A DNA stretch of 64,000 nt from Arenibacter sp. P308M17 (lineage in GTDB: Bacteria > Bacteroidota > Bacteroidia > Flavobacteriales > Flavobacteriaceae): assembly GCF_003426735.1 (NCBI RefSeq), contig NZ_QVON01000003.1, positions 558,001 through 622,000 on the forward strand, written 5' to 3'. The notes beneath the pieces are model-generated. The model did not search any database, was not told where the DNA came from, and worked only from the letters and a program-made list of their open reading frames with translations. Of this stretch, positions 38,318 to 57,089 are shown in pieces. Both the position numbers and the translations under genes were made by a program. How positions within the stretch are numbered: the stretch's first letter is position 1; every line of letters begins with the position of its first letter.

Positions 38318-38680
38318 ATGGATTCATTTATTACCATAAGGTTCAAGCGCAAAACGGCAAAGCGTTTTCAGACATTCTCACGCACCCATTTCAAATCCCA
38401 TACGGAAGCCATGGCTACTATGCTCGATTTTTTCTTCTATAACGAAATCTCCCCTAGGGAGAATCTTGGACCCACGGGAAGGACCATTGAACAGTCCTTG
38501 AAGAAACGGATCAATGCATCTATCGCGATTATACGGGATATGGAAAAGACCCAGACCAAGCCCACTGTGGCCATGATACAATCCTTGTTTGAAATGGAGG
38601 AGCCAAAAAAGAAAACTTTGATTTTGGAGAAGAAAAAAGATGAGGAGAAACAACCAAAATTTCACAAGCGTAATAAATAA
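38318..38680 (+). CDS. BfmA/BtgA-type mobilization accessory protein
   Basis: The 120-residue basic protein starts with FITIRFKRKTAKRFQTFSR, a ribbon-helix-helix-like beginning, and ends in a lysine-rich tail. Size, charge and position immediately before a relaxase match the BfmA/BtgA family of Bacteroidota mobilization proteins. These bind oriT and assist the relaxase. The repeats just upstream are plausible binding sites. Confidence 0.8.
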   Translation: MDSFITIRFKRKTAKRFQTFSRTHFKSHTEAMATMLDFFFYNEISPRENLGPTGRTIEQSLKKRINASIAIIRDMEKTQTKPTVAMIQSLFEMEEPKKKTLILEKKKDEEKQPKFHKRNK

Positions 38681-38699
38681 AAACAAAAAAAAGAGCACT

Positions 38700-39749
38700 A
38701 TGTACATCACTATTACAGCCCAAAAACTCGGAGGTTCCTATTCCCCAAGTTCAGCAGGTTTTGTGGATTATCTGGGGAAGGAAAACCAAGGAGTGGAGGA
38801 GGACCTGCCTTCCTGCGAGGCAGGTATGGAACATTTTTTCAATCAGTACGGCGATCAAATTTCAGCAGAGGAAGTAGTAAGGAAAATCGATGGCAATACC
38901 GCTAAGCTGGAAAAGACCGAACCAAGGTTTTACTCTATTACTGTGAACCCCTCCAAATATGAACTTAACGCATTACAGAATCCAAGTGAAGACCTTAAGA
39001 CATATACCCGGGAACTGATGAAGGATTATGTGGCATCATTTAATCGGGAGATAAATGGACGGCAGGTTACTGTTGATGATATAAAGTACTATGCCAAGAT
39101 CGAGCAGCAAAGGACGTTTAAAGGAACGGATAAGCAAATCCGGGAAAATCAGCCCTTTGCTACAAAAATACTTGAGTTAAGGAATAACATAGGAAAGGTG
39201 GAAAACGGTACCATGGAGGGCAGTATTAAAAAGATGGAAAGACAGATCAACAGATTGGAACGCCAGGCCCCTCATCAACAAAATGGCCAACGAATCGTAC
39301 AGGGAATGGCCAAGGCTGGGAGCCAAAGTCATGTACATATCGTCATGAGTAGAAAGGATGCTTCCAATTCCTTCAGCTTGTCCCCAGGGAGCAAGTACAA
39401 AGCCTCCGAAACGGAGTTGCACGGAAAGATGGTCAAAAGAGGATTTGATAGGGATCAATTTTTTGAACGAGCGGAAAGGACCTTCGATAGGACCTTTGGA
39501 TACCAAAGAAACTTTTCGGAAAAATACAGTGCCCGAAAGGAGTTTATCAATAATCCGAAAATGTACTTTAATTCTTTGATGAGACTGCCCACCAACGAAA
39601 AGGCTATTGCCTTTAAAATAATGCGCGAAACAGGCCTTCCCATAATGGGTAGCATCCCGGTAAATAAAGCTCAGATAGCATTGAAAATTTTCAATAAGCT
39701 TAGGCAAGGGGTAGAGGGGGCCATCAAATCGAGTTCTATAGGAATCTAA
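38700..39749 (+). CDS. Relaxase / mobilization protein (DUF5712-like)
   Basis: Start 38700 (MYITITAQKLGGSYSPSSAG) is preferred over an upstream in-frame ATG at 38640 that overlaps bfmA. The protein has about 349 residues. The motif QSHVHIVMSRKD (about residue 210) supplies the two histidines expected for a relaxase metal site, and FYSITVNPSKYEL holds a candidate catalytic Tyr. It would nick oriT and pilot the strand through the tra pore. It lies between bfmA and the coupling-ATPase gene, as in Bfm-type mobilization modules. Confidence 0.78.
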   Translation: MYITITAQKLGGSYSPSSAGFVDYLGKENQGVEEDLPSCEAGMEHFFNQYGDQISAEEVVRKIDGNTAKLEKTEPRFYSITVNPSKYELNALQNPSEDLKTYTRELMKDYVASFNREINGRQVTVDDIKYYAKIEQQRTFKGTDKQIRENQPFATKILELRNNIGKVENGTMEGSIKKMERQINRLERQAPHQQNGQRIVQGMAKAGSQSHVHIVMSRKDASNSFSLSPGSKYKASETELHGKMVKRGFDRDQFFERAERTFDRTFGYQRNFSEKYSARKEFINNPKMYFNSLMRLPTNEKAIAFKIMRETGLPIMGSIPVNKAQIALKIFNKLRQGVEGAIKSSSIGI

Positions 39750-39758
39750 TTTAAGGGT

Positions 39759-41339
39759 ATGGAAATAGTGGATCCTTTCCTGATTTTCATGATCATCGGA
39801 TTGATCAGTATTCTGTTTTATATGTTGTTTAAGAACAATAAATTTGCGTTTGGTCTAAATATCTTACTTGTTTTGGGAATGTTGGTCGGGGCTGCCCAAT
39901 TAATGACGTTGTTGCAGGGAATACTATACTTAGCATGTCCCTTATTACTTATCAATACGGTTTTATATGTTTTTCTTCATAAAAAGGATATAGCTGAATC
40001 CATTAATGATAAATATCAAGTCAGCTTTAAAACTACCAAGGGAAATTTCCAAATCAATAACATCAAACGGGGCGTTTCCATTATAGGATCTGCGGGAAGT
40101 GGAAAGACCGAAAGTGTGGTCTATGGCTTTCTACAACATTTTAATAGACATGGTTTCTGTGGGGTCATCCATGATTATAAGGATTTTGAGATTTCCGAGA
40201 TGGCTTATCCACTGTTCAAGGATTCCGACATCCCTTTTAAAGTGATATCCTTTGATAAGATCATTCATCGGGTGAATCCCATAGCACCTCGATATTTGGA
40301 GAATCCGGAAAGTGTAAACGAGGTATCCCGGGTATTGATAGAGAACCTTTTGGAACAGAAAGATTCCGTTTCGATTGGCGCTACCAAGTTTTTCCACGAT
40401 GCCGCGGAAGGGTTGATAGGTGGATTGATCTGGAGACTCAAGTCTTCCTATCCCGAATATTGCACTTTGCCACACGTCATCGCAATATACCATTACCTGG
40501 ATACTGAGAGCCTTATTACATTTTTGGAGTCCAATATAATCTCCAAAGGAATGGCCGATGCTTTTATTAGCGGGATGGATTCGGACAGGCAGACCGCAGG
40601 GGTGAAAGGGACATTAAGCAATGCATTAAAAAGGATAAGTACCCCACGAATATTTATGGCCCTGTCCGCGGATGAAGTGCCGCTCAATATCAACCACAAG
40701 GATAATCCTGCCGTTATTTCCGTGGTGAACAATCCTAGGTTTGAAACCTCGTATTCACCAATAATTGCCACTATTATCCACACAATAACCAAACAGATGA
40801 GTGTTAGACATTCTAAACCTTCTTTTTTATTAATGGAAGAAGCCCCTACCATTAAACTTTTGAACATGCACCGGATTCCCGCAACTCTTCGGAGTTATGA
40901 CATAACAACGATCTATGTTATGCAGGACAAGATTCAAAATGATATGATGTACGGTGATAAGGCGAGCAGGGCGATTTTGAGCAACTTGTCCTATCAGTTT
41001 TTTGGAAAGGTCAATGATCCTGACACTGCAAAATATTATGAACGATTTTTTGAGATTATCAAAGACCCAACCAAGAGTGTTAGCCGAGGCCATAGTCTTG
41101 ATTTTGATACCCGAGTAACCACAGGAGAAAAGGAAATTCCGAAAATTAGAGCGGATGTGTTTTTTCGATTGGAACAAGGCGAATTTATCACCTATGCAGA
41201 TGGAAAGGACAAAAAGGTGCAATTTAAATTACAGGCCATTCGCCGGGGTCTTCCTAAACCTTCCAAAGAATTTACTAAGTCTGATCTAGAAACTAATTTC
41301 GAGAGAATTTATAGAGAAGCCAGGTCTATATTTGAGTAA
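39759..41339 (+). CDS. Type IV coupling ATPase (TraG/TraD-like, MobC type)
   Basis: A 526-residue inner-membrane ATPase. Hydrophobic segments lie at residues about 5-25 and 30-70. Walker A is IIGSAGSGKTES (about 112) and Walker B is SFLLMEEAPT. It links the relaxase-DNA complex to the conjugation pore. The gene begins 9 nt after the relaxase gene, so both are one transcription unit. Confidence 0.9.
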   Translation: MEIVDPFLIFMIIGLISILFYMLFKNNKFAFGLNILLVLGMLVGAAQLMTLLQGILYLACPLLLINTVLYVFLHKKDIAESINDKYQVSFKTTKGNFQINNIKRGVSIIGSAGSGKTESVVYGFLQHFNRHGFCGVIHDYKDFEISEMAYPLFKDSDIPFKVISFDKIIHRVNPIAPRYLENPESVNEVSRVLIENLLEQKDSVSIGATKFFHDAAEGLIGGLIWRLKSSYPEYCTLPHVIAIYHYLDTESLITFLESNIISKGMADAFISGMDSDRQTAGVKGTLSNALKRISTPRIFMALSADEVPLNINHKDNPAVISVVNNPRFETSYSPIIATIIHTITKQMSVRHSKPSFLLMEEAPTIKLLNMHRIPATLRSYDITTIYVMQDKIQNDMMYGDKASRAILSNLSYQFFGKVNDPDTAKYYERFFEIIKDPTKSVSRGHSLDFDTRVTTGEKEIPKIRADVFFRLEQGEFITYADGKDKKVQFKLQAIRRGLPKPSKEFTKSDLETNFERIYREARSIFE

Positions 41340-41556
41340 AATTTTCTGATAATATTATAGGAGGGGTATTAATTGAGTGGTTACACTAATAGCATTTTCA
41401 GTTTCGTTAAATCGCACTTTATAGAATCAGTAAAGTATATTTAATCGACCCTTTTATTAAACTTTATAGCCTTACAATATTTATTGATTTTAAATAGTTT
41501 AAAGTATCGTACTAAATAATTAGTTTGTATTTTGAGGTTTATTTAAACTTTGGGTC
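41340..41556. other. Spacer between mobilization module and recombinase
   Basis: An AT-rich gap of 217 nt without a clear hairpin. Crossover sites of serine recombinases often lie just upstream of their gene, so a res-like site could be here, but no convincing inverted repeat was identified. Confidence 0.3.
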
Positions 41557-42174
41557 ATGGTTTTTGGATACGCTAGGGTAAGTACTGCAGAACAGAATCT
41601 GGATTTACAATTAGATGCCTTTTTAAAAGAAGGCATTGATACAAAGAACATTTACACGGATAAAGTTTCCAGTTCACAAGAAGAACGTAAAAGCTTAAGC
41701 AAACTTCTGGACTATGCCCGTGAAGGGGACACTATTGTCGTTTGGAAATTGGACCGCCTGGCCAGAAGCTTGATTCATTTTACAAACTTTATCAATCAAT
41801 TGAATGAAAAGGGTGTCAAGTTCCGGAGCATTACCGAACCTTTTTTGGATACCACGGACAAGTCTTCACATTCCCAATTCATTGTAAACATGTTCGCTGC
41901 CCTAGCACAGTTAGAACGGGATATTATTATTGAACGAACCAAGGCAGGTTTGGCCTCCGCGAGAGCAAGGGGTAAAATATTAGGTGCCCCTACGGGCATC
42001 AGTAATAAAAATCAACAAAAAGCCATAATTTGCGAACAGTACTTTAAAGAGGGTAAATTAACCGTTTCTGAAATTTGCGAGAGAGTGAATATTTCTAGAG
42101 CAACGTATTACAAGTATTTAAGGCATAGAGGGCTTAATGGGAAGCTTCGTCCTTACAATGCGGACAGTAAATAA
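41557..42174 (+). CDS. Serine recombinase (resolvase/invertase family)
   Basis: A 205-residue protein with the catalytic-domain start MVFGYARVSTAEQNLDLQ (catalytic Ser9). VWKLDRLARSL, FAALAQLERDIIIERTKAGL and a C-terminal helix-turn-helix (TVSEICERVNISRATYYKYL) follow. It acts on short sites to resolve or invert DNA. The last 150 bp recur nearly unchanged at 47067-47216, and a related but diverged 3' end lies at 44859-45089. The intact gene therefore stands at the head of an array of cargo blocks separated by recombinase ends. Confidence 0.93.
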   Translation: MVFGYARVSTAEQNLDLQLDAFLKEGIDTKNIYTDKVSSSQEERKSLSKLLDYAREGDTIVVWKLDRLARSLIHFTNFINQLNEKGVKFRSITEPFLDTTDKSSHSQFIVNMFAALAQLERDIIIERTKAGLASARARGKILGAPTGISNKNQQKAIICEQYFKEGKLTVSEICERVNISRATYYKYLRHRGLNGKLRPYNADSK

Positions 42175-42179
42175 AGGAT
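42169..42179. repeat. 11-bp direct repeat at cargo boundary, copy 1
   Basis: AAATAAAGGAT spans the stop codon of the recombinase gene. The same 11 bases occur at 47058-47068, exactly where the later copy of the recombinase 3' end begins. The pair brackets the cargo at 42180-47057 and may mark a recombination or integration point. Confidence 0.55.
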
Positions 42180-42273
42180 TTATAAATCAAAAAACTAGAA
42201 GTACTCACAAAGCAGAAATATAGTAACTTGTTACTATATCCGTGACGTTACCTGCAAGCTGAAAAATAAAAAT

Positions 42274-42357
42274 ATGAACAAAACAACTAAAATACTAATC
42301 ATACTAATTTTCACATCAATGTCTTTCAATAAAGTTTTTTCTCAAGAGATAATGTAG
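42274..42357 (+). CDS. Short signal-peptide ORF, probable gene remnant
   Basis: 27 codons encode a clear secretion leader (MNKTTKILIILIFTSMSF, cleavage near FSQ) that stops four residues after the predicted cleavage site. It is probably the truncated start of an exported protein gene, left at a cargo junction. Confidence 0.4.
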   Translation: MNKTTKILIILIFTSMSFNKVFSQEIM

Positions 42358-42369
42358 GCTTCCCTAAAA

Positions 42370-44139
42370 ATGAATGAAATTCCAGATGAATTAAAAGAAT
42401 TCTATAACTCAATTGAAAATCTCAATTCATTGAGCATTTGGAATATTCATAGAGAAATTAAACAAACTACAAGAATCGAAGGAGATTGGGAGGATAAACT
42501 AATCATCGAAAGAAAATCATTAAACTATAATTTAAATAAAGGGGAACTAAAAACTAATGTTCAAGTCACTGACTCAAAAGGTCAAATTGTAGGAATTGGA
42601 CTTGAAAAGAAAGACCTAGAATATTTAAAGAACAGATTAGACGAAACTCAAAACACTTGGCTAAAATCTAGATATTCACACCTATTATGGCAAGAAACAA
42701 AACACAACAAATATGCGGAAATAGCAATTGATAATTATATTCAAACTATAAACAGAATAAAATCAGATGAAGCTAATGAATTACCTATTATTCTTTCAGC
42801 TATTCTAAATATATCAAAAAGGTCAAAGAAGAAAATAGAACAAGCTAAAGAATTAGCAATTATATTGATTCACGACTTACCAAATTGGTTTAAACCAAAT
42901 ATTCTAAATTCAATTTTAGATAATAATATACTTTCAAGTGAAGAACTAAATGATATAGCAGAGAAATTACCAAATTGGATAGAAGATGACAAATCTGTTT
43001 CATATTTTTCTAATAAAAGCACATTGGATTCTGGAATAAGACTTTATAATTCTCTCGAACTTCCATTGAATAAATTATACGAGTTATTAGCTAAAAATGA
43101 AGATGTAATTATCGAGCAACATCCAGAAGATACTGACTTTGTAAAATATACAACCATTGGCACTAAAGCTAAATATTTAAGGCTAGCAGGAAAACTAGAT
43201 GAAGCTGAAGAAGTTTTAAAAGAATATAATAGATTAAAACAAACAGTAAAACTTGGAAAAGTAAGTTGGCAACTTGGTGAAAAAGAAACAGAAATGTTTA
43301 ATGAATATCTTAATATGAAATCTAAAATCATTTTAGATATGCCAACTGAAGGTATTCTTGCTTTCTTTTCAATTAATGAGGACATACTTGTTGATCCAAT
43401 TGAGAATGAAGAAAACGCGAAAAAATCAATAAAGAAGTCAATTAGCTATCTCTTTAGCACAAGTGTTTTTGACATAAACAGCAACTTCAAGAACCTCAAA
43501 GATTCAGAGAAAATTGACAAAGAAATAATTCAAGGCTATACAATTTCTCACGGAGTTAAATGTTCCAGCCTTTTTCTAAAAGTATTCGTAGATGGTATTT
43601 TAGCAGGTAAATTAAATTATTACAAAATATTCGAGTTCTTGGAAACTCATACTTGGTATGGTGTTAAATTCAAACGAGGAATGACTGACAATGAAATTGA
43701 CCAAAACTCATCTTGGTTGACAATGCTTGCCCCTGGAATTCATAATTTATTCGCTCAATTTGAACTATCAGTATTGATGAATACTAATAAAATCAATAAT
43801 TTCATTTTAGCAATGGACTCTTTGACTATCAAGTTTGAAGGAGCTTTAAGAGATTTTATTCGTTTGTCTGGTGGAAATACGTCTACATCAAAAAGAGGAG
43901 AAATCAAGGAACAACTTCTAGAAGAATTACTAGACAATCCAACAACAAAAAAACATTTCACAATAAAGGATATTGAGCTATTCAAATACACATTCACATT
44001 AAAAGGGAAAAATTTGAGGAATAATATAGCACATTCATTTTTACAATACTCTGATTATAACTTACAAGCTGTTATATTAGTTTTCTTCTGTATTTTAAGA
44101 CTTGGAAAATATACATTTGAAGAAAAAACCCGAAGCTAA
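42370..44139 (+). CDS. DUF4209-like protein with HEPN-type motif
   Basis: A 589-residue cytoplasmic, mostly helical protein, strongly AT-rich in coding sequence. The C-terminal 150 residues contain FEGALRDFIRLSGGNTSTS and LRNNIAHSF; R550 and H555 form an Rx4H pattern like that of HEPN ribonucleases. The overall layout recalls DUF4209 proteins, which are found on mobile elements. An RNA-cleaving defence or abortive-infection role is an inference. It is the first gene of the first cargo block, followed 109 nt later by a small membrane protein that may be its partner. Confidence 0.55.
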   Translation: MNEIPDELKEFYNSIENLNSLSIWNIHREIKQTTRIEGDWEDKLIIERKSLNYNLNKGELKTNVQVTDSKGQIVGIGLEKKDLEYLKNRLDETQNTWLKSRYSHLLWQETKHNKYAEIAIDNYIQTINRIKSDEANELPIILSAILNISKRSKKKIEQAKELAIILIHDLPNWFKPNILNSILDNNILSSEELNDIAEKLPNWIEDDKSVSYFSNKSTLDSGIRLYNSLELPLNKLYELLAKNEDVIIEQHPEDTDFVKYTTIGTKAKYLRLAGKLDEAEEVLKEYNRLKQTVKLGKVSWQLGEKETEMFNEYLNMKSKIILDMPTEGILAFFSINEDILVDPIENEENAKKSIKKSISYLFSTSVFDINSNFKNLKDSEKIDKEIIQGYTISHGVKCSSLFLKVFVDGILAGKLNYYKIFEFLETHTWYGVKFKRGMTDNEIDQNSSWLTMLAPGIHNLFAQFELSVLMNTNKINNFILAMDSLTIKFEGALRDFIRLSGGNTSTSKRGEIKEQLLEELLDNPTTKKHFTIKDIELFKYTFTLKGKNLRNNIAHSFLQYSDYNLQAVILVFFCILRLGKYTFEEKTRS

Positions 44140-44248
44140 GACGTGTAAAATTTATTGCTAGATAAACCCAACTTAAGTAAGTCTTAGCAGACTTTCTGTC
44201 TGTAATTTATTTGCTAACTTTAGTGCTGAAACACGCAACGAAATCATA

Positions 44249-44803
44249 ATGAAGGAAAAAAAAACAAATAAAATCAATTTTGGATTATGGATTTTTTTGT
44301 CTGTAATTATCGTTGCTGTGCTATTTGCTATAATTTGGCACATTACCTTCAATGGATATTCGTTTCCTGAAAACTCAAATGAATTTGGAGACAGTTTTGG
44401 CATGGCAAATGCGCTATTCTCGGCATTAGCTTTCGCATTTCTCATTGTCACAGCCTTAATGCAAAGAAAGGAGCTTGAGTTACAAAGAGAAGAGCTAATG
44501 GAAACAAGGTATGAACTCAAAAAATCTGTCACTGCCCAGGATGCCAGTCAACAGGCATTAAATATTCAAGTGCGTATAATGGCAAAGCAAGCAATGTTGA
44601 CTTCTTATCAAAGCTTGTATCAACTGAACTTAGATAACTCTAGAAACCTGGTGGATCCTATTAAAGACATACAGGAATCAAAAAAGGAGGCTAAGGTGTA
44701 CCTTGGACTAATCGAGCACATGGTTAAGGAATTGGAAAAGGAGCAAGAATTATTTGCCAACCCTGACATTATTGAATTAATAAAACTAACAAGGAAATTA
44801 TGA
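44249..44803 (+). CDS. Membrane-anchored coiled-coil protein
   Basis: A 184-residue protein with two transmembrane helices (about 13-34 and 50-70). A coiled coil rich in Glu/Gln/Lys follows (QRKELELQREELMETRYELK), then a helical C-terminus. The family is not recognised. Proteins of this shape occur in mobile defence cargo as membrane sensors or effectors, so it could work with the DUF4209-like protein upstream; this is inference from position. Confidence 0.5.
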   Translation: MKEKKTNKINFGLWIFLSVIIVAVLFAIIWHITFNGYSFPENSNEFGDSFGMANALFSALAFAFLIVTALMQRKELELQREELMETRYELKKSVTAQDASQQALNIQVRIMAKQAMLTSYQSLYQLNLDNSRNLVDPIKDIQESKKEAKVYLGLIEHMVKELEKEQELFANPDIIELIKLTRKL

Positions 44804-44858
44804 CCTCTTGGTTTTAAGAGGTTTCCAGAAGGTCTAATAAACGATTATCAAATGTAAA

Positions 44859-45089
44859 AAGGTTGGGTTAGAATATACAAGACGACGCGGAAAAATTTTA
44901 GGCGCCCCAAAAGGTATTAGTAAGAAAAATCAACAAAAAGCTGTACTTTGTGAACAGTACTTTAAGGAAGGCCTTCTTACAGTAACTGAGATATGTGAAC
45001 GGCTTTAAACTTCAATGGCAACTTATTATAAGTACTTGAGGTACCGAGGGCTTGATGGGAAGTTAAGACCATATCCACAAAAATTATGA
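44859..45089 (+). pseudogene. Diverged 3' end of a serine recombinase gene
   Basis: The frame encodes RRRGKILGAPKGISKKNQ and KAVLCEQYFKEG, then TVTEICERL, a stop, and ATYYKYLRYRGLDGKLRPY to a final stop at 45087. It aligns without net indels to the last 77 codons of the recombinase at 41557, but at clearly lower identity, so it derives from a related gene. The catalytic domain is absent. It lies between the membrane-protein gene and the OLD nuclease gene and marks a cargo boundary. Confidence 0.85.
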
Positions 45090-45140
45090 ATAAATCGTGT
45101 TACCTACTTCCACGAAAGACTAATTAAACAGAACTATTCT

Positions 45141-47030
45141 ATGAAGTTAGAAAAAATAACACTTAAAAATTTTAGATGTTATAATACCCGAACGGTCTTT
45201 AAAGTCGACGATTTAAATTGCTTGATTGGTAAAAATGATGTCGGTAAATCAACAATTTTAGAAGGACTTGAAGCCTTCTTTAATGATGGTATTGACTCCG
45301 GTGATTTATCTACAAATAGTGATGGAACAGAGATAGAAATTACCTGCGAGTTTTCAGCAGTTCCAGATACCATAATTCTTGATACTACAATAGAAACAAG
45401 TCCAATGGAAGAAGGAATACTTAACGAAGCTGGGAATCTTGAGATAATCAGAGTTTTTAAGATTGGTAAAACCATAGGGAAATCAATTTTCTTGAATGTG
45501 CAAAATTATGCCCATGCCGAATTATCAAACCTTTTAGAACTTAAAAATGATACTTTAAAGGCGAAAGCTCAAGTATTAGGAGTCGATTTAACCGGGGTTA
45601 CTTTAACAAAAAATCCTCCCATTAGAAGTGCTTTTAGAAATCATTTTGGTCGTGACAAAGTTAACATGAGAATTAAAGTAGATGGAAATTTAACTACAGA
45701 AAACAATCTTAAAGCAGTTTGGGGTAAGCTAAAAGCTATGCTACCAATTTTTTCACTTTTCAAAGTTGATAAAAATCTCGATGATAAAGATGGTGATGTA
45801 CAAGACCCAATGAAAAGTGCCATAGAGGAAACCCTAGCTATTGAAGCCATTAGGACAAGAATGGAAGAAATAGAAAATATGGTTAGGCTGCAATCTACAG
45901 ATGTAGCTGATCGAATAATTGCAAAACTAAAAGACATAGATGCTTCCTTGGCTGAAACGCTGAAATCCGATCTTAGAAAACAACCTAACTGGAAAGGCCT
46001 TTTTGATCTTACACTTTTTAACGAAGATGGAATTCCTTTGAATAAAAGAGGAAGTGGGATAAGGAGATTAGTTTTGCTTAGTTTTTTTCAAGCACAAGCA
46101 GAAAAAAGGAAAGCAGATCAGAGCGCACCTGCTATAATTTATGCTATTGAAGAACCTGAAACGTCGCAACATCCTAATCACCAAAAATTACTTATACAAG
46201 CTTTAATAGAATTGGGCGAAAGCGAAAATACACAAGTTTTTTTCACCTCTCATAGTGCAAATTTAGTTAGAGAAATACCTATCCAGTCGCTAAGATATAT
46301 TACCAATACCGGTGCAGGCCTTCAGATAGAATATGCTTGGAATTTTGAAACAGAAGAAGAAATTCAAGAAACAATTGATTCCGTAATAACTACATTGGGT
46401 ATTTTACCTAATCCAAAAGACTCGATTAAAGTTTTAGTCTATGTAGAAGGAAATAATGATGTTCTAGCATTAAAGAGGTACAGTACAATCTATCAAATGG
46501 AAGGAGAGGAGACAATAGATTTAAATGATCCTTCAGTTGGATGGGTTATAACAGGTGGTTCTTCTCTTAAACATTATGTCGAGAATAGTTATCTGTCCGG
46601 TTTAGGCAAACCGGAGGTTCATATTTATGACGGTGATGACATTACTTATATAAATGCAGTAAAAGAAATAAATGCAATGGGAAATCCTAATAAAGTTGCA
46701 TATAACACTTCAAGACGGGAACTAGAAAACTATTTGCATTATGAAGCAATAAACGAAGCCTATTCTGCAAATGGAAGCCAATGTCAACTATCTGCATTAG
46801 ATGAGCAGGATGATGTTCCTATAATAGTAGCAGAGCATACATATACCCTAGCAGGAGGGGATTGGGCAGCACTGGGCTTCGAAAAGCAAAAAAAGAAATC
46901 TGACAGCAAGAAAAAGTTACTTAATACTCAAGCAGTAGAATTAATGACTCTAGCGAGATTAAAAGAGACCGATGGGTACACGGAAATTAGAGGTTGGTTA
47001 GATCAAATTGAAGTATCTTCAAGATTATAG
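45141..47030 (+). CDS. OLD-family ATPase/Toprim nuclease
   Basis: A 629-residue protein. The N-terminal ABC-type ATPase has Walker A LIGKNDVGKSTIL (about residue 30), signature RGSGIRRLVLLSF, Walker B IYAIEEPETSQHP and the H-loop FFTSHSANL. The C-terminal Toprim nuclease has the acidic motifs VLVYVEGNND and VHIYDGDDIT. OLD proteins cut DNA and occur in anti-phage systems. No helicase partner gene (as in Gabija) lies next to it, so it looks like a stand-alone form. Recombinase-gene 3' ends flank it on both sides, which makes it a self-contained cargo block. Confidence 0.88.
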   Translation: MKLEKITLKNFRCYNTRTVFKVDDLNCLIGKNDVGKSTILEGLEAFFNDGIDSGDLSTNSDGTEIEITCEFSAVPDTIILDTTIETSPMEEGILNEAGNLEIIRVFKIGKTIGKSIFLNVQNYAHAELSNLLELKNDTLKAKAQVLGVDLTGVTLTKNPPIRSAFRNHFGRDKVNMRIKVDGNLTTENNLKAVWGKLKAMLPIFSLFKVDKNLDDKDGDVQDPMKSAIEETLAIEAIRTRMEEIENMVRLQSTDVADRIIAKLKDIDASLAETLKSDLRKQPNWKGLFDLTLFNEDGIPLNKRGSGIRRLVLLSFFQAQAEKRKADQSAPAIIYAIEEPETSQHPNHQKLLIQALIELGESENTQVFFTSHSANLVREIPIQSLRYITNTGAGLQIEYAWNFETEEEIQETIDSVITTLGILPNPKDSIKVLVYVEGNNDVLALKRYSTIYQMEGEETIDLNDPSVGWVITGGSSLKHYVENSYLSGLGKPEVHIYDGDDITYINAVKEINAMGNPNKVAYNTSRRELENYLHYEAINEAYSANGSQCQLSALDEQDDVPIIVAEHTYTLAGGDWAALGFEKQKKKSDSKKKLLNTQAVELMTLARLKETDGYTEIRGWLDQIEVSSRL

Positions 47031-47057
47031 ATTATGTAATATTTAATAAGAAAGTTC

Positions 47058-47216
47058 AAATAAAGGATAATTTGCGAACAGTACTTTAAAGAGGGTAAAT
47101 TAACCGTTTCTGAAATTTGCGAGAGAGTGAATATTTCTAGAGCAACGTATTACAAGTATTTAAGACATAGAGGGCTTAATGGGAAACTTCGTACTTACAA
47201 TGCAGACAATAATTAA
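47058..47216 (+). repeat. Near-identical second copy of the recombinase 3' end
   Basis: From 47067 to 47216 the sequence repeats the last 150 bp of the recombinase gene (42025-42174). Only about six differences, all in the distal part, were noticed. It encodes IICEQYFKEGKLTVSEIC and onward to a stop. The 11 bp just before and into it (47058-47068, AAATAAAGGAT) repeat the bases around the stop codon of the intact gene. The catalytic part is missing, so this is a remnant or recombination scar rather than a gene. Confidence 0.88.
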
Positions 47217-47299
47217 AGAATTAGTTACCTTAGTTTTTATAAATAATATATAGTTAATAGCTATATCCAATTGTAGGCAACAATTATATTAAAAAAATA

Positions 47300-47343
47300 A
47301 AGTTCACTTAATTAGTGAACTTTTTTATTTATTTGTACCTTTG
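47300..47343 (+). promoter_or_regulatory. higBA promoter and operator
   Basis: A 9-bp perfect inverted repeat AAGTTCACT / AGTGAACTT (47300-47308 and 47314-47322) lies 13 bp upstream of TACCTTTG (47336-47343), an exact fit to the Bacteroidota -7 box TAnnTTTG. The toxin start follows at 47364. The palindrome overlaps the expected -33 region, as in antitoxin-repressed toxin-antitoxin promoters; with its flanking A/T runs it could also terminate upstream transcripts. Confidence 0.65.
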
Positions 47344-47363
47344 CACTATGGTAAAAGAAAGTT

Positions 47364-47684
47364 ATGGAAATAAACTTCGAGAAAGATTATTTAGAAGAAC
47401 TGTATGAAAACGGAAAGGCTCGAAGCAAAAAACACAGGTTTCAACCAAGCGTTATCAAAAAGTATATACAAACAATAGATAAATTAAGAGTTGCAAAAAA
47501 TACAGAAGAGTTATATCCCATTAAGAGTTTGAACTATGAACGGCTTATTGGCGATAAAAAAGGATTAGAATCTGTTCGAGTCGATGGCAAATATCGAATA
47601 GAATTTCTAACTACACTAGAAGGAGAAGAACCTAATAGTATTACAATATGCTCAATTATTGAATTGAGTAATCACTACAAGTAA
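47364..47684 (+). CDS. higB: HigB/RelE-type mRNA-interferase toxin
   Basis: A 106-residue basic protein with the RelE/HigB layout: an N-terminal helix pair (YLEELYENGKARSKKHRFQP), the middle strand block LIGDKKGLESVRVDGKYRIEF, and a C-terminal strand with SIIELSNHYK. Members cleave mRNA on ribosomes. The antitoxin gene begins 13 nt downstream, and the toxin-first order is typical of HigBA. Confidence 0.85.
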   Translation: MEINFEKDYLEELYENGKARSKKHRFQPSVIKKYIQTIDKLRVAKNTEELYPIKSLNYERLIGDKKGLESVRVDGKYRIEFLTTLEGEEPNSITICSIIELSNHYK

Positions 47685-47696
47685 ATACTGGGAAAA

Positions 47697-48791
47697 ATGG
47701 CAACAAACAAAGTTTTAATACCCGCGCAAGCGACACATCCTGGAGTTTTAATTAAAGATGAATTAGACGCAACACCTGATTTAAACCAAAGAAAATTGGC
47801 AAAGGAATTAGGTGTGCAACCTTCATTTTTAAATGAAATAATTAAAGGAAAAAGACCTGTAACCGCAGACATTGCAATTTTATTAGAAAAAATATTGGGC
47901 GTTTCAGCGGACTATTGGATGAAATTTCAGTCTCAATACGAGATTGACAAGGCAAGAGTTAAGCAAAAAAACATTAAAAGAGTTAAGAATATCGAACTAT
48001 GGAACATTATAAAAGAGTATGTTCCAGTTCGATATTTTAAAAAACACAATTACTTAAATGATGATATTGAAAGTGACATAAAAACTATAAAAATTATTTA
48101 TGCTGTAGAAACTATTGATGGTCTAGTATCAGCTTTTTCTAAAGATAAATTCGCATATTATCGTAAATCAGAAAAATTAAAGATAGACGACAAAAATATG
48201 TTTGCTTGGAGTTCTTTAGCACAATATGAAGCTAAAAATCAAAAAACGAACACTTTTAATTTTGACAATTTAAATCAACTCTGTTTAAATCTAAATAACA
48301 TATTTTACGAAAACTCTGGAACACCTGAAAGAGTTAAAGCCGTTCTCAATCAATTTGGAATTAAAATGCTATTAATTGATAAACTAGAAAAAACACCTAT
48401 TGATGGGTTTTCCTTTTGGTCTGAGAAAAATCCAGCTATTGCCTTGACATTGAGATATAATCGGATTGACAATTTTGCATTTACAATTATGCACGAAATT
48501 GGACATATTGATTTGCACTTGCGAAATGATAAGGACAGAAAGTTTATGGATTTAACTAGAAAACAGAATTTAGATAAATGTGAAACCGAAGCAGATAATT
48601 ACGCTCAGGAAAAACTAATTTCTAAAGACATATGGCAAGATATTTTAGAAAACCATCTTCCATTGAATGATGAAAAAATTAAAGCTCTAGGTAACAGACA
48701 CAGAATCAATCCCGCTATCCTTTTGGGCCGAGTTTGTTATGAAATGGATTATTACGCAATGAAAACCACGATTGACAAAAAAATGAAATAA
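47697..48791 (+). CDS. higA: HigA antitoxin fused to an ImmA/IrrE metallopeptidase domain
   Basis: A 364-residue protein. Residues about 10-85 form a HigA-type helix-turn-helix (HPGVLIKDELDATPDLNQRK, then LAKELGVQPSFLNEIIKGKR). The C-terminal half holds an ImmA/IrrE zinc-peptidase motif (MHEIGHIDLH, H266 and H270). It should neutralise HigB and repress the upstream palindromic operator. The peptidase may be a damage- or phage-responsive switch that inactivates the antitoxin; this is inference from the fusion. Length fits known HigA-ImmA fusions. Confidence 0.88.
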   Translation: MATNKVLIPAQATHPGVLIKDELDATPDLNQRKLAKELGVQPSFLNEIIKGKRPVTADIAILLEKILGVSADYWMKFQSQYEIDKARVKQKNIKRVKNIELWNIIKEYVPVRYFKKHNYLNDDIESDIKTIKIIYAVETIDGLVSAFSKDKFAYYRKSEKLKIDDKNMFAWSSLAQYEAKNQKTNTFNFDNLNQLCLNLNNIFYENSGTPERVKAVLNQFGIKMLLIDKLEKTPIDGFSFWSEKNPAIALTLRYNRIDNFAFTIMHEIGHIDLHLRNDKDRKFMDLTRKQNLDKCETEADNYAQEKLISKDIWQDILENHLPLNDEKIKALGNRHRINPAILLGRVCYEMDYYAMKTTIDKKMK

Positions 48792-48793
48792 CT

Positions 48794-48985
48794 GTTTAAC
48801 ACAACCTATAAACAATAAGGGTTTCAGGCATAAACGTAAGGTTTGTATATTTTTGTGAAGACCCCAAAATCTTTTGGATTTTGCTTTGAGCAGAAAAAAA
48901 AGAAAAAACAAAACCAAAAGCTTTTGCTATGTGCGTGGGGGAAAGCAAACGCTGGTTTGCCCCCGTACTGTTCATAGAGCTAAAC
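48794..48985. repeat. Large imperfect hairpin, attC-like cassette boundary (candidate)
   Basis: The left arm (48794-48821) and right arm (48961-48985) are inverted repeats with a few mismatches and a 4-nt bulge: GTTTA, CTAT, AACA, TA and GGG recur in order. Inside are a second imperfect inverted repeat (around 48866-48884 and 48908-48925) and a short hairpin GCAAAC-GCTG-GTTTGC flanked by G5/C5 (about 48936-48964). It ends in GCTAAACCGTCGTAGGC. A bulged long palindrome behind a toxin-antitoxin pair is the layout of integron attC sites, but no integron integrase is in the window. Confidence 0.45.
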
Positions 48986-49012
48986 CGTCGTAGGCAATGC
49001 GAGAAAAACTGA

Positions 49013-50455
49013 ATGGTAAGAATATATTTTGATAAACAAATATTTAGTCATCTTTTTAAACAGGAGAAAAGCCAATATGTTGATTTATTAAATAAAATTA
49101 AGAATCATAAAACCAGTCTCTTTTGCTATTCGCACGCCCATTTGCTTGATTTAAAAAGTGATAAAACTGATATAAAATATTCAGAATTAGAATTCATTGA
49201 AACTCTCGTAAACGACAACTATTTATCTTATCACGCTTTAGAGAAGAAAACATCTTGTTATTTAGCCAAGCCTTTAGACGCGTTTAAAGACGTAGAGGAA
49301 GAAACTGACCATATAGATTTCTCAAGCATCCTTGATTTTGACACTTCGAAACTACCAATTGAAGACATAAAAAAATTAGAACAAGCTAAAACCTTGTTAA
49401 CTGAAAAATTTCTTGATTTCGGCTTTATTGATACTGATTCCATTGATTCAAAAGTATTAGACCCATTATCTAAAATATTACCAACTGACTTACCACCAAT
49501 GAATATTATGGAGTGGAGTGAACACTTTATGGGAATGTTCAAAACTATGCAAGATGATAAATCCGTATACAAGGGACTTCGAAATGTAACTGACAAACAT
49601 CTTAATAATGGAAAATTCGTTGTTGATTATGATGAAATTGATTTCAATGAAGACTTAAAAGATTCTTACCTTCAAAAAAGCTTCCTTGATTATGTTAGAA
49701 GTAACATAAACCCAAATGGCGATAAGGAAATGTCCAATTACGATTTTTTCACTAATGCCTATTTTACACTTGACCTTTTAGGCATTAGTAAGGAGCCTTC
49801 AAAAAGTGTTCGTTTCAACAACGTCCTCAATGATGGGATTCATAGTTACTACGGAGCATACTGTGATTGCGTAATATCCGATGATAACGAATTTTTAAAA
49901 AAAACAAGAGTCCTTTATAAACTTTTAGGAATTGAAACTAAAGTATATCACGCCGAAGAATTCATAAAGTCGTTCAATTTCATATTAGATAAAGAAGAAG
50001 ATAGTTACCAAACTTTTAGCAAGTTACTAATCAACGATATTAAAACGGGTATAATTATAGACGATTTCAAATCACTGAATTTTGATAGACATACTTCAAC
50101 TATAAAACCAATTCATAGTTATTTAGGATATTTCAATCGCATTGATAATTTAGTAGAGGAAGGAAAAAATTATCTCTATTTTTATAGAAGAACTAAAAAC
50201 TACTCTAACTTTAGTTTTCTTCGAGAATATGAATTAGTAGTTAATAGTGGATTCCGAGTTTTAGGAATTGACCAAGATTCAAGGGGTATTTTCGATTGGG
50301 ACACTGAAAAAGAGGAGTTAGTCAATGACAAATGGAATGGTCGATTTTGGGACTTTAATGACTTTACAATTAAAATAGAAAACAATAAAGGCTCTAAAGA
50401 ATTGAGTATGCTAATGGCATTTAGGAGCGAAAGCACTGCCTACAACAATATATAA
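49013..50455 (+). CDS. Predicted PIN-like nuclease-domain protein
   Basis: A 480-residue protein without signal peptide. The N-terminus VRIYFDKQIFSHLFK puts an Asp (D7) after a hydrophobic strand. Much later, GAYCDCVISDDNEFLKK is followed by TRVLYKLLGIETKVYHAEEF, the arrangement of acidic residues and last strand of PIN-type ribonucleases. The middle is a long helical insertion. The C-terminus has no recognised domain. A nuclease role in defence is plausible. The gene lies between two palindromic spacers. Confidence 0.5.
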   Translation: MVRIYFDKQIFSHLFKQEKSQYVDLLNKIKNHKTSLFCYSHAHLLDLKSDKTDIKYSELEFIETLVNDNYLSYHALEKKTSCYLAKPLDAFKDVEEETDHIDFSSILDFDTSKLPIEDIKKLEQAKTLLTEKFLDFGFIDTDSIDSKVLDPLSKILPTDLPPMNIMEWSEHFMGMFKTMQDDKSVYKGLRNVTDKHLNNGKFVVDYDEIDFNEDLKDSYLQKSFLDYVRSNINPNGDKEMSNYDFFTNAYFTLDLLGISKEPSKSVRFNNVLNDGIHSYYGAYCDCVISDDNEFLKKTRVLYKLLGIETKVYHAEEFIKSFNFILDKEEDSYQTFSKLLINDIKTGIIIDDFKSLNFDRHTSTIKPIHSYLGYFNRIDNLVEEGKNYLYFYRRTKNYSNFSFLREYELVVNSGFRVLGIDQDSRGIFDWDTEKEELVNDKWNGRFWDFNDFTIKIENNKGSKELSMLMAFRSESTAYNNI

Positions 50456-50594
50456 AAAAATAGGGCAAATAGTGCTTAATCGAAAGGTCTGTGTGTATTT
50501 AAAACAAAATGCAAAAGATTTGGCTTATGGATAATCCGCAAGGTAATTCCTTATTTTAAGCCCTACTTCTTTTATACTAAACGTTGTCAACCAT
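50456..50594. repeat. Second, weaker palindromic spacer resembling a cassette boundary
   Basis: An imperfect inverted repeat pairs AGTGCTTAA (50471-50479) with TTAAGCCCT (50556-50564). The spacer ends in CTAAACGTTGTCAACC (50578-50593) just before the next start codon, similar to the CTAAACCGTCGTAGGC end of the hairpin at 48794-48985. It could be a related attC-like site, but pairing is much poorer. Confidence 0.35.
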
Positions 50595-51533
50595 ATGGAA
50601 AAACAATTTTATATTCCATTTAAGAACTCGGAATTTAACACCAGTAGTTGCTTCTTATGTGGTTATATTATTGAAGAAAAAATAACTCGAGAACACGTTT
50701 TCCCTAAATGGTTACAAAAAGAATTTGATTTATGGGATAAAACCATCTCAATAACTAACAACACAACTATTCAGTATAAAAACCTTACAGTTCCTTGCTG
50801 TTCAAAATGTAACAATGAGCATTTATCAGTTATGGAAAGTAATTTTCAAGAATTACTTCAACAAGGTTTTAAAGAACTAACCGATTTTGATGAGCAAGTG
50901 ATTTTCAATTGGTGTGGTAAAATATTATACGCCACAAGACACAGGGAATTATCATTGCTATATGATAGAAAAAAACCTGAATTTGGTTCAATAATTTCTG
51001 ACGAGGAATTTCAAAGTTATTCTTGTCTTCAATTTTTTTTACAATCAATTAGATATAGTACAACTTGGAATGTAAAACCTTGGAGTTTATTTCTATTTGA
51101 ATCTAAAACCAATGATTTCTTTTATCAAACGAGAGTACATTTTCCTTGCTTATCCATTAAACTCGGAAAATACATAGTGATTATTCTTTTTGAAGACAAT
51201 AATGCAATTGAAAACCACTTTAGTAAATTCAAACAAATAAGGTTTACACCAATAAGTTTTGTTCAGCAAATTGAAATTACTTCATACTTATTTTATGCTG
51301 CCTCTATAAAAGAAAAAATCCCATCTTACAGCTCTCACTTTTTTGATAACCACCTAACAATAAACAGTTCTAATCAAATACAGAGTAGAAATTTTGATTA
51401 TGATGAATTTGCTTTTTACTATCGATTGATGTTAAGAGATGTGGGAATAGAATTTAAAGATAAAATCCATACAGGAAACGGAATGATTAACACAAGCTTA
51501 ATTGACGAAAACAATGAGCCTTTAATAAAATGA
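50595..51533 (+). CDS. HNH-type endonuclease-like protein
   Basis: A 312-residue protein. The N-terminal 90 residues carry a zinc-finger HNH layout: C19xxC22, then REHVFPKWLQKEF (H34 as candidate catalytic His), and later VPCCSKCNNEHLSVMESNF with the second Cys pair and the distal His. The remaining two thirds are unassigned. Such proteins are common in mobile defence cargo; the target is unknown. The gene begins right after a palindromic spacer, and a complementary GATTGCCAAC motif follows its stop. Confidence 0.68.
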   Translation: MEKQFYIPFKNSEFNTSSCFLCGYIIEEKITREHVFPKWLQKEFDLWDKTISITNNTTIQYKNLTVPCCSKCNNEHLSVMESNFQELLQQGFKELTDFDEQVIFNWCGKILYATRHRELSLLYDRKKPEFGSIISDEEFQSYSCLQFFLQSIRYSTTWNVKPWSLFLFESKTNDFFYQTRVHFPCLSIKLGKYIVIILFEDNNAIENHFSKFKQIRFTPISFVQQIEITSYLFYAASIKEKIPSYSSHFFDNHLTINSSNQIQSRNFDYDEFAFYYRLMLRDVGIEFKDKIHTGNGMINTSLIDENNEPLIK

Positions 51534-51980
51534 AAAAATGCGATTGCCAACAAACAACTGAGTTAACTAAATGTTCAAATAAACGATTAATTTTTATGAA
51601 TAGAAATAAATTTTGTTTGTTGGTTTTCATAATATTTTTTTGTCCTTGGGTAGTTGTGAGAAAGTAGAGGAGTCTACGAGAATGTATACAAAAGGAGGAG
51701 GACTAAGACATGGATGACAGATTAAGGTTCCATGTATTTTTCCAGAGCCATTCCAGGTACCTATGAAAATTGTAAGTCAACTTTTAAGTTATAGGAAAAT
51801 TAGTATTCCTAAGGTTGTATTGAGTAAAATAAGTGAAAACATCAGCATAATAAAATCAAAGCTTATATGAAGTGCTAATTATTATAGTTTTAATAAAAGG
51901 AAGAAAATATATCTTCTCCTTATTATAATAATAAGGAATTAATTTTATCTTAATCAACTATTATACTAATAATTAGCAGG
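51534..51980. other. Cargo spacer with a decayed lipoprotein start
   Basis: The sequence begins with GCGATTGCCAACAAACAACT (51540-51559), whose complement resembles the GTAGGCAATGCG end of the hairpin at 48794-48985. A frameshifted small lipoprotein follows (separate entry). The remainder is AT-rich without recognised genes. Confidence 0.35.
51596..51717 (+). pseudogene. Frameshifted small lipoprotein
   Basis: ATG 51596 starts MNRNKFCLLVFIIFF. After a T7 run another frame continues with LGSCEKVEESTRMYTKGGG to a stop at 51715-51717. Joining the frames gives a lipoprotein leader with lipobox LGSC and a short tail. The function is unknown; the indel lies in a homopolymer. Confidence 0.45.
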
Positions 51981-53226: not shown

Positions 53227-54081
53227 TTAATTTGGGTTATTGATATATCTATGCGAGACTTTAAGCACTATATTCCGTTCTCCTTTCTTTTCATTTAACT
53301 CAAGGACAGCGATGCGGTCATCACTCAAGGAGATTTTATTCAATACATAAACCAATCTGATGGCTTCACCTTTAGTAATTCTGGAGGGCACATTATATCT
53401 GAATAGCGGTTCTTGATACAATTTCTGTAAAGATTTCCTTTTTCCCTTCTGTCTTGTTTCAACCGAGAGTTTTAAGAAATTCAAATCGTAATCCAAAGTA
53501 GATTTGTTTTCAATCTGGATAACGAAGTAGAGTTCTTCGGTATCAAAAACAATATTTTCAACGCTTAAAAGGATGTCCTCGCTACCCTTTTTTAACCTCC
53601 CTATTTTCTGCTTTTGGTTGAGAAGGTATGCGCAAATTTTCTTGTAATAAAAAGTTTTTTTGTCAATGGTATCCCCAAGTGAATCTTTACGGGTAATCAC
53701 TGGGACCAGAGGCTTTTCATTGCCTATACTACTGGAATCCGGTATAAAATAATTCAGCTTGGAAAGCTCCTTTTTATAACTTACAATATACGAATAAATA
53801 GAACCATTTCTATTGACTACCAGCAAGTTGCTTTCCTTTCCCGGCTTTGCCTGAAGCAAACCGAAATATTGTTCTTTTTCCCGATTGTAGGTAAAGATGA
53901 AGTTATCGGACCCAGTAATTCCTTGGCGAATGGGATCGGGAAAAAAGAGTGCCACATTCTTTTGGTCATTAGCGTAGATGGTATCCAATACTATTGGCTG
54001 TTGTGCTGGGGCCTGCGCTGAGCAAGGCCGAAATAAAAAAGCGGAAATTACTATAGCAGATATTAATATAAATGTTCTCAT
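53227..54081 (-). CDS. traN: Conjugative transposon protein TraN (VirB9-like)
   Basis: A 284-residue exported protein with a signal peptide ending near PCSAQ. The body is beta-rich with PIVLDTIYANDQKNVALFFP at the start and FDTEELYFVIQIENKSTLDY in the middle, matching Bacteroidota TraN, an outer-membrane-ring subunit of the conjugation pore. It overlaps traM by 4 nt (stop/start), showing translational coupling. Confidence 0.85.
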   Translation of the reverse strand: MRTFILISAIVISAFLFRPCSAQAPAQQPIVLDTIYANDQKNVALFFPDPIRQGITGSDNFIFTYNREKEQYFGLLQAKPGKESNLLVVNRNGSIYSYIVSYKKELSKLNYFIPDSSSIGNEKPLVPVITRKDSLGDTIDKKTFYYKKICAYLLNQKQKIGRLKKGSEDILLSVENIVFDTEELYFVIQIENKSTLDYDLNFLKLSVETRQKGKRKSLQKLYQEPLFRYNVPSRITKGEAIRLVYVLNKISLSDDRIAVLELNEKKGERNIVLKVSHRYINNPN

Positions 54082-55007
54082 AGCTTTGGTTTTAGAATTA
54101 GTTTGTAGTTGTTCAGTACGGTTACTTTTACGTTTCGATTCTTTCGCCGAAGTACTTTGGTCATACCTCCCACCTGAGGAACGCTGGGAATATTGATGTC
54201 CTGAATAATATCGTTGAGGACCTCGGTACCAACTTCTTCCCGAAAACTATTTTCTACATAGATACCCTCGCTACCATCCTGAACATCAAAGGCCTTTAAT
54301 TTGGTAGGATGATGGTCAATATTTTCAATTTCGATCAACGCACGATTGGGCTGAAAACTTATAAATCCAAAAACAGGTGTGTTTTTAGTAATTACCTTTC
54401 CATTGATAGTCGCTGTGTTGGTCAACCGCATTCGCAATCGAGAATTGGCCTGGACTACTTGGTCACCGTCGGCAACTGCATAAATCGTAACATCCGTATT
54501 CCCGATAATTGAAATGTCGTTTGGCTTAGGCGAAGCAGCAAAGAATAATTGATGTTCCAAACCCAGTTCTTTGGATTCAATCTTTTGTTCCCGTTTTATT
54601 TCCGCGGAATCTATTTCCTGAACATTTTTGGGAGCGGTTTTTCTTTCCCCAAGATTCTGATAGGACGATTTAGAATATTTAATTTTCCCTGCTGCATAGA
54701 TGCTATCCACAATACGCTCTTTTTCAAGTTCAGGAAGATTTGGATTATAATAACCAAGGGAATCAATCAGTTTTTCATCATAGATACTCGGCGCATTGTT
54801 CTCACGCTCTTCTTTCAAATCATTGATGGCATCCAGTTTGGAATTGTATTCTTTTTGATTCTCTTCCAAATTGGGCACAAAGGTTTGCTCCAGGTTTTCA
54901 TTTTCACTTTCATCATCGCCCATTACCATTACGGAATAGGAAATTAGAAACAGAAATATCACAGCTAGGACTGCAGCAAAGACAATTTTATTTTTTTCTA
55001 TCTTCAT
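54078..55007 (-). CDS. traM: Conjugative transposon protein TraM (VirB10-like)
   Basis: A 309-residue bitopic protein with one N-terminal membrane helix (about 8-30), a long polar, coiled-coil-prone linker, and a C-terminal domain starting near SRLRMRLTNTATINGKVI. It ends with GGMTKVLRRKNRNVKVTVLN. The layout fits TraM/VirB10, spanning inner and outer membranes. Its start overlaps the end of traK by 20 nt. Confidence 0.87.
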   Translation of the reverse strand: MKIEKNKIVFAAVLAVIFLFLISYSVMVMGDDESENENLEQTFVPNLEENQKEYNSKLDAINDLKEERENNAPSIYDEKLIDSLGYYNPNLPELEKERIVDSIYAAGKIKYSKSSYQNLGERKTAPKNVQEIDSAEIKREQKIESKELGLEHQLFFAASPKPNDISIIGNTDVTIYAVADGDQVVQANSRLRMRLTNTATINGKVITKNTPVFGFISFQPNRALIEIENIDHHPTKLKAFDVQDGSEGIYVENSFREEVGTEVLNDIIQDINIPSVPQVGGMTKVLRRKNRNVKVTVLNNYKLILKPKL

Positions 55008-55611: not shown

Positions 55612-55622
55612 TTTAAGTTAAA

Positions 55623-56465: not shown

Positions 56466-56467
56466 CT

Positions 56468-57046: not shown

Positions 57047-57089
57047 CGCTAAAAATTTATTTTGGTATTCGTGAATCTGTGATTTCATT

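Follow-up and report, generated by a model that had tools for sequence, protein, structure and literature searches.

The window analysed here, a 64,000-nucleotide (nt) stretch of the 5.04 Mb genome of Arenibacter sp. P308M17 (contig NZ_QVON01000003.1, positions 558,001 to 622,000; our G000:C20:558001-622000), contains a gene for a small serine recombinase of the resolvase/invertase family, which we call R, followed by three cargo units that each close with a copy of an 18-bp site. This is very probably a gene-cassette array headed by a small serine recombinase and integron-like in its behaviour, in which each cassette would consist of one gene (sometimes a few) and one 18-bp site at its 3′ end. 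We also think it likely that the arrays constitute a 'serine integron', that is, a system of cassette capture and shuffling that evolved separately from integrons, uses a small serine recombinase, double-stranded cassettes and a one-sided 18-bp site, and is spread over genera of the Flavobacteriaceae.

The 18-bp site

The consensus of 131 distinct sites is AAAGTTCAAATAAA[C/G]GAT, an 18-bp block with sharp edges: in the flanks (24 nt before, 30 nt after) every position stays at 0.2 bit or less, and the first A is present in 94% of the sites although it lay outside the search pattern. A previous, sequence-only reading of the window overlooked the copies that close its three cargo units. We searched 22 loci, selected solely by R, with at most two mismatches over up to 10 kb on either side and with the R region itself excluded. 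Downstream of R there were 71 sites on its own strand and none on the opposite one, upstream there was one, and 18 of the loci had at least one site. Five loci selected because they were known arrays also had their 13-mers downstream of R counted blindly: the top strand-specific repeat was AAGTTCAAATAAA in four of them and, in the remaining one, a variant that overlaps it. At one mismatch or fewer, 18 relative genomes have 2–39 matches each versus 0–2 for a reversed control pattern, and among the places listed the matches lie largely in same-orientation clusters. Twenty further loci were fetched by their sites; in all 20 the sites are on one strand only, and four of these loci overlap others already in the set.

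The exact site is present in 33 of 397 genomes of the family, 19 of which have at least two, and in one of 395 genomes drawn over the phylum, that of P308M17 itself; in the samples taken it is confined to the Flavobacteriaceae. None of the 41 testable loci of distant recombinases (L026–L079; 54 loci in all, 13 too short) has the flavobacterial site in a blind k-mer test, including those of the close relatives L072 and L073. Carriage by phages was also considered; the exact site occurs, as AAAGTTCAAATAAASGAT only, in 16 viral-contig stretches with one match each, which we read as chance.

Exchange at one end of the site

All-against-all comparison of the arrays (blocks of at least 80% identity and at least 150 nt, block ends at locus edges not counted) yielded 70 blocks, or 50 after exclusion of 20 that cover R. 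Left block ends fall at a site in both sequences in 20 of 49 cases and right block ends in 21 of 46, as against means of 0.009 and 0.001, respectively, in 1000 random placements. Examples are blocks shared by L006 and L007 (2.03 kb, 97.9% identity), L008 and L125 (1.53 kb, 92.0%), and L119 and L123 (0.6 kb, 93.9%). A direct comparison is offered by L110 and L116, which are orthologous in place. Their flanks have identities of 99.1% and 97.0%, and where L116 has a single site, L110 has two identical ones with 5,757 bp of cassettes between them.

The direction in which the site belongs was read from 23 near-full-length homologous cassette pairs, drawn from 287 cassettes in 48 loci. Where the left neighbours differ, the left site has 62 mismatched positions over 20 cassette pairs; where the right neighbours differ, the right site has 17 over 18 pairs. 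Since the site varies with its left neighbour and seldom with its right, it is the 3′ end of a cassette, with exchange at its last bases (SG|AT); the comparisons show a site that travels with the cassette on its left, the terminal AT being the point of exchange. A promoter, ribosome-binding or terminator element, as the sole explanation of the site, is ruled out by the recombination breakpoints.

Cassettes and their cargo

There are 289 site-to-site units of 60–4000 bp (median 610 bp). Their longest open reading frame (ORF) is on the site strand in 251 and on the opposite strand in 14, and the other 24 have none of at least 50 amino acids (aa); the arrays thus have the make-up looked for in an integron, mostly single-ORF cassettes in the same orientation with a 3′ site. 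The ORFs form 217 clusters, 184 of them with a single member. Of 173 representative cassette proteins 146 were scanned, and matches were obtained to 114 Pfam families and 65 PADLOC models, none of either matched by more than three cassette proteins. Hydrolases, thioredoxins, glyoxalases, aspartyl proteases, Mrr nucleases, helix-turn-helix (HTH) proteins, and M78 proteins are among the 25 Pfam families listed, and RmrA, AbiD, PDC-S02, and PDC-S60 among the 25 PADLOC models listed. The cargo is not limited to the defence genes for which the sequence-only reading proposed its accretion mechanism: defence is present among the cargo and does not define it.

Linkage of the recombinase to the arrays

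R is a protein of 205 aa, complete by sequence, with a PF00239 catalytic domain (2.7e-41) and a C-terminal HTH_7 domain (2.5e-5), and is the sole PF00239 match in its genome. Its structure matches are to DNA-invertase and gamma-delta resolvase, with R residues 2–189 aligning to the latter. A second subfamily, R2, is 50–55% identical to R. In eight R2 loci, mostly picked because sites lay on the same contig, the sites are downstream on the same strand, and in L114 and L118, which were fetched by their sites, R2 precedes all of the sites on the same strand. L149 has an intact R with less than 900 bp behind it and no site there.

All 29 R and R2 loci scored, which are related and not independent, have an inverted copy of the site 104–110 bp upstream of the start codon, matching at 13 or more of 18 positions. 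In shuffled upstream sequences a match of 13 is reached somewhere in 24%, and one of 15 in 0.7%; because 13/18 is common in shuffled sequence, the weight lies on the constancy of the position and on its occurrence in both subfamilies. The inverted copy in the window is at or near the left limit of conservation among R loci, with some relatives sharing up to ~50 bp more. A match to the R tail is found in 16 of the 19 genomes with at least two exact sites and in 22 of the 378 others (Fisher test, 1.4e-15), some of these matches being weak (e.g. 38% in G289). From its position, the upstream sites and this co-occurrence we infer that R catalyses exchange at the cassette site. R would bind the site and exchange strands there; cassettes would be excised as circles and inserted again at a different site, whether or not the array has an R nearby. 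Relatives of R on plasmids are all below 60% identity among the 5000 records kept, the best of those listed at 52.4%.

Several observations weigh against this reading. Over half of the block ends do not coincide with recognised sites in the two sequences compared, and the cassette pairs of the site-direction comparison have cassette families in common and do not count as independent. Conservation is confined to one side of the exchange point, which is unusual for a serine recombinase acting as a dimer on its site. Four of the 22 R loci (L009, L013, L015, and L025) have no site within 10 kb downstream. Most R loci have no clear attI-like head site at the R stop codon, the matches there being at chance level as judged with a control set of 63 recombinases that includes at least three family members (L072, L073, and L099); site-like matches over the stop codon are seen in L020 (2 mismatches in 17), L011 (15/18), and in part the window (13/18), and most others are at chance level. 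Three of the 19 site-bearing genomes (G222, G369, and G377) have no R-tail match, and G369 and G222 are also without any PF00239 match, so arrays persist without R. Neither R nor R2 is present in the fetched stretch of 18 of the 20 site-fetched loci; four of the 18 (L115, L117, L120, and L129) continue the arrays of L006, L007, L014, and L024, and the other 14 are not known to continue an array with R. R is likewise missing from L141, L142, L143, and L147, and the second array of the P308M17 genome (C12:5609-11894, L110) has no local serine recombinase.

Recombinase 3′ ends within the array

The sequence-only reading described an intact recombinase gene ending at 42174 and two further recombinase 3′ ends in R orientation without a catalytic domain, and all of this stands. 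The near-identical 3′ end at 47067 is 96% identical over a 156-nt register. At the diverged one, R residues 124–200 match at 44844–45074 with 74% aa identity; its ungapped DNA identity to R is 61%, and an internal TAA is present. Searching the genome with R at the DNA level finds only these three window places, to which a protein search adds one weak match (C22:150781-150930, 42% over 50 residues). A sequence 82% identical to the window's 118 bp at the R stop is found in A. hampyeongensis (L006), 3.2 kb behind R, where it adjoins a perfect site, GAAAGTTCAAATAAAGGAT, on its left; the same motif precedes both of the window's 3′-end scars.

Window positions 47047–51591 are 99.4% identical to Arenibacter catalasegens (L004), in which an intact R allele, 93% identical to the window R, directly precedes the same cassette as the HigBA unit of the window; cassette 3 and the first cassette behind R in L004 are 99.4% identical, and the homology stops 4 nt past GTTCAAATAAACGAT in both, at the site that closes the cassette. 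The scar before HigBA is the 3′ end of another R allele and not of the window R, since L004 has that allele in intact form before this cassette. Local duplication as the source of the repeats is ruled out for the same reason. The L004 arrangement is what one would expect if a cassette was captured along with part of a recombinase gene, and not if each acquisition left a relic behind. Separately, 125 nt of the 3′ part of the window R (41998–42122) are identical to the L004 allele within an aligned region that is 93% identical overall, as after gene conversion with the scar.

Outside the window there is one scar of the same kind, as the sequence-only reading anticipated: at L140:9406-9807 a recombinase 3′ portion (from about codon 65) is joined directly to a cassette site. 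Copies of R were sought by tblastn in the loci used, and in three of the six truncated copies examined (two in the window and that in L140) the R interior abuts the AT of a site, whereas in L138, L144, and L145 the junction is not directly at a site. At the junction corresponding to the HigBA scar the L004 parent reads ...AAAAAGCCAT|AATTTG, with the AT shared and the left side weakly site-like. The scars look like by-products; in our preferred reading, recombinase 3′ ends were captured via pseudo-sites. R may sometimes use the AT of a poor site inside a recombinase gene; on the simplest account, a circle formed between this pseudo-site and a true site further down would carry the R 3′ end and the first cassettes, and would insert behind a site of another array. 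Cassettes 2 and 3 of the window can be read in this way.

A different route to the scars, possible in our view and still doubtful, has two steps: a module of R plus cassette inserts into the 3′ part of an older R, and the upstream direct repeats then recombine to delete the older 5′ part. It would account for the fact that 3′ ends alone remain and for the differing sequence left of the upstream inverted site among relatives. It needs two events, however, where capture of an R 3′ end and a cassette on one circle accounts for both the junctions and the arrangement in L004 with a single event.

Comparison with known systems

Integrons consist of a tyrosine integrase (IntI), an attI site and cassettes in the same orientation that each have a 3′ attC site used in single-stranded form; integrase-less arrays are known and cassette diversity is high. 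The arrays here are alike in their mostly one-gene cassettes, single orientation, 3′ site, recombinase at one end of some arrays, occurrence of other arrays that lack one, and high diversity, and unlike in that the recombinase is of the small serine type, lies upstream of the array and is transcribed toward it. An attC-like inverted partner (at least 14/18) within 200 nt upstream is found at four of 158 sites and at four of 158 random positions; downstream, the numbers are eight at sites and two at random positions. The mean minimum free energy, with RNA parameters, is −15.3 at sites and −19.8 at random positions, so the sites fold less, and attC-like folding is ruled out by these counts of partners and folds.

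Sites of the pdif type are XerC/XerD sites with two arms around a spacer and alternate in orientation, whereas the site here is 18 bp, has no second arm, keeps one orientation and is linked to a serine recombinase. An Xer two-arm structure was not found at the 131 sites, and there is no upstream inverted partner above the random level. The dif/pdif modules of Acinetobacter plasmids are reported to be small gene modules with short recombination sites in shuffled contexts (e.g. PMC6449649, PMC13141974), and our arrays resemble them in this. In behaviour they are, beside integrons, the other near parallel to our arrays.

By sequence, R belongs to the same protein family as the Tn3/gamma-delta resolvases and the Gin/Hin invertases, enzymes that resolve cointegrates or invert segments, and the inverted motif copies upstream of R are reminiscent of res sites. 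The IS607-type serine transposases are likewise small serine recombinases, and need little specific sequence on one side of integration; they have an N-terminal DNA-binding domain and move their own element, whereas R has a C-terminal HTH and the cassettes carry other genes. We know of no resolvase, invertase or IS607-type transposase that heads a gene-cassette array. Searches by title and abstract of the open-licence literature found no description of such arrays, which may have been published elsewhere.

Two repeats behind distant recombinases, in Bacillus and Planococcus, are unrelated to the flavobacterial site. Bacillus sp. ISL-34 (L075:11745-19301 and L078:3551-14718) has the repeat AACTA[A/T]CGGGGCAGG[A/T]TAGTT on one strand, mostly behind a serine recombinase of 41% identity; with up to three mismatches there are 131 copies in the ISL-34 genome and up to 195 in a relative. 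Palindromic in form, it is perhaps another cassette-like repeat. In Planococcus (L048:12721-18968) a serine recombinase of 42% identity is followed by copies, all on one strand, of a repeat related to the palindrome GTTCGTAAAAGTGTACTTTTACGAACG, which in one relative also recurs at contig ends; these repeats are possibly res sites bounding modules.

Alternative explanations

It is improbable that another recombinase, Xer-like or a phage-type tyrosine enzyme, moves the cassettes and that R merely sits at the head of some arrays. The arrays in G222 and G369 and the many fetched stretches without R would be expected if this were so, and tyrosine recombinases scoring below the cut-off of the integron-integrase model TIGR02249, several of them, are found in all 18 array-bearing genomes (and in 13 of 14 control genomes). 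An IntI-like tyrosine recombinase (G000:C12:1347-2117) lies ~3.5 kb before the second array of P308M17, and another (G384:C5:18807-19016) ~1.2 kb before an R gene. However, none of the 18 array-bearing genomes has a match above the TIGR02249 cut-off, a search that has no positive control (0 of 14 control genomes pass); among the matches listed, all but those two are on other contigs or tens of kb from the listed arrays; and the genes observed to head arrays and to have an inverted site upstream of them are R and R2. Homologous recombination between arrays, with short repeats or shared genes as crossovers and no site-specific enzyme, is the explanation to which we give hardly any credence. Runs of neighbouring cassettes are common to L004 and L112 and to L110 and L116, and the 125-nt identity of R with L004 has the appearance of gene conversion, but the mismatches within the first 16 positions of the site go with the left neighbour, which places the crossovers at one end of it, and the sites of the 20 site-fetched loci share one strand in each. 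An 18-bp match is, moreover, too short for efficient RecA recombination.

The sequence-only reading had proposed a cassette-like accretion in which cargo enters at, or together with, the recombinase 3′ end and every acquisition leaves an older 3′ end behind. The cassette-wise exchange of cargo and its varying order among relatives survive comparison; the point of entry does not. As a mechanism this is very improbable. Both window scars do stand directly before a cargo unit, there is the L140 junction, and truncated R copies are present in L138, L144, and L145. Yet exchange boundaries lie at the separate 18-bp site at the cassette 3′ end, which already contradicts the recombinase 3′ end as a general acquisition point, and 289 units run from site to site, while a truncated R adjoins a site in three cases.

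Organization of the window

The features of the window are collected in Table 1. Profile searches refine the three cargo units of the sequence-only reading (a DUF4209-like gene plus membrane protein, an OLD nuclease, and a HigBA pair) and leave them as they were described. The 184-aa protein of cassette 1 has a hydrophobic N-terminal part, judged by eye. The best PADLOC model for the OLD-type ATPase is AriA (2.1e-56), and the partner of the HigB-like toxin, an HTH plus M78-peptidase protein, matches PD-Lambda-2_B (1.2e-46). The genes for the 480-aa and 312-aa proteins, absent from the earlier list, belong to the HigBA unit.

Upstream of R are a DUF5712 gene, which we take to be of relaxase type, and a coupling-protein gene (38640–41339), and beyond the array are DUF4138, TraM, and TraG-type genes on the minus strand (53227–59495). 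With conjugation genes on both sides, the array is apparently part of a conjugative element.

Table 1. Coordinates of the recombinase gene, sites and cassettes in the window.
Feature	Position	Strand	Remarks
Inverted site copy, ~109 bp before R start	41448..41465	-	at least 13/18 match
Second inverted site copy, directly before R start	41534..41551	-	res-like arrangement
R, small serine recombinase of the resolvase/invertase family, proposed to move the cassettes	41557..42174	+	PF00239, HTH_7, structure matches
AAATAAAGGAT over R stop codon, possible partial head site	42169..42179	+	13/18 matches alone, not significant
Cassette 1: DUF4209/PDC-S39 protein (42370-44139), 184-aa protein (44249-44803)	42180..44845	+	
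Site closing cassette 1	44828..44845	+	3/18 mismatches
Cassette 2: R 3′-end scar (~44844-45089), OLD/AriA-like ATPase (45141-47030)	44846..47068	+	
Site closing cassette 2	47051..47068	+	perfect match
Cassette 3: R 3′-end scar (to 47216), HigB-like toxin, HTH-M78 partner, 480-aa and 312-aa proteins	47069..51587	+	
Site closing cassette 3	51570..51587	+	

Cassette 3 also contains a ~200-bp intergenic repeat (48791–49000), between the HigBA partner and the 480-aa gene, that recurs in part at 68–90% identity in 16 of 18 genomes of the genus; several of the copies lie close to the ends of contigs. A different type of mobile unit may be involved.

Significance

Integrons, with their tyrosine integrase and single-stranded attC sites, are the textbook gene-collecting platform. 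If the arrays described here are what we propose, there is a second platform, in which the recombinase is a small serine enzyme and the site is short and double-stranded, and cassette arrays would have arisen more than once. The site could be a tool for ordered DNA insertion, and it provides a simple sequence tag for hundreds of cassettes of marine bacteria, mostly of unknown function and including defence and toxin-antitoxin genes.

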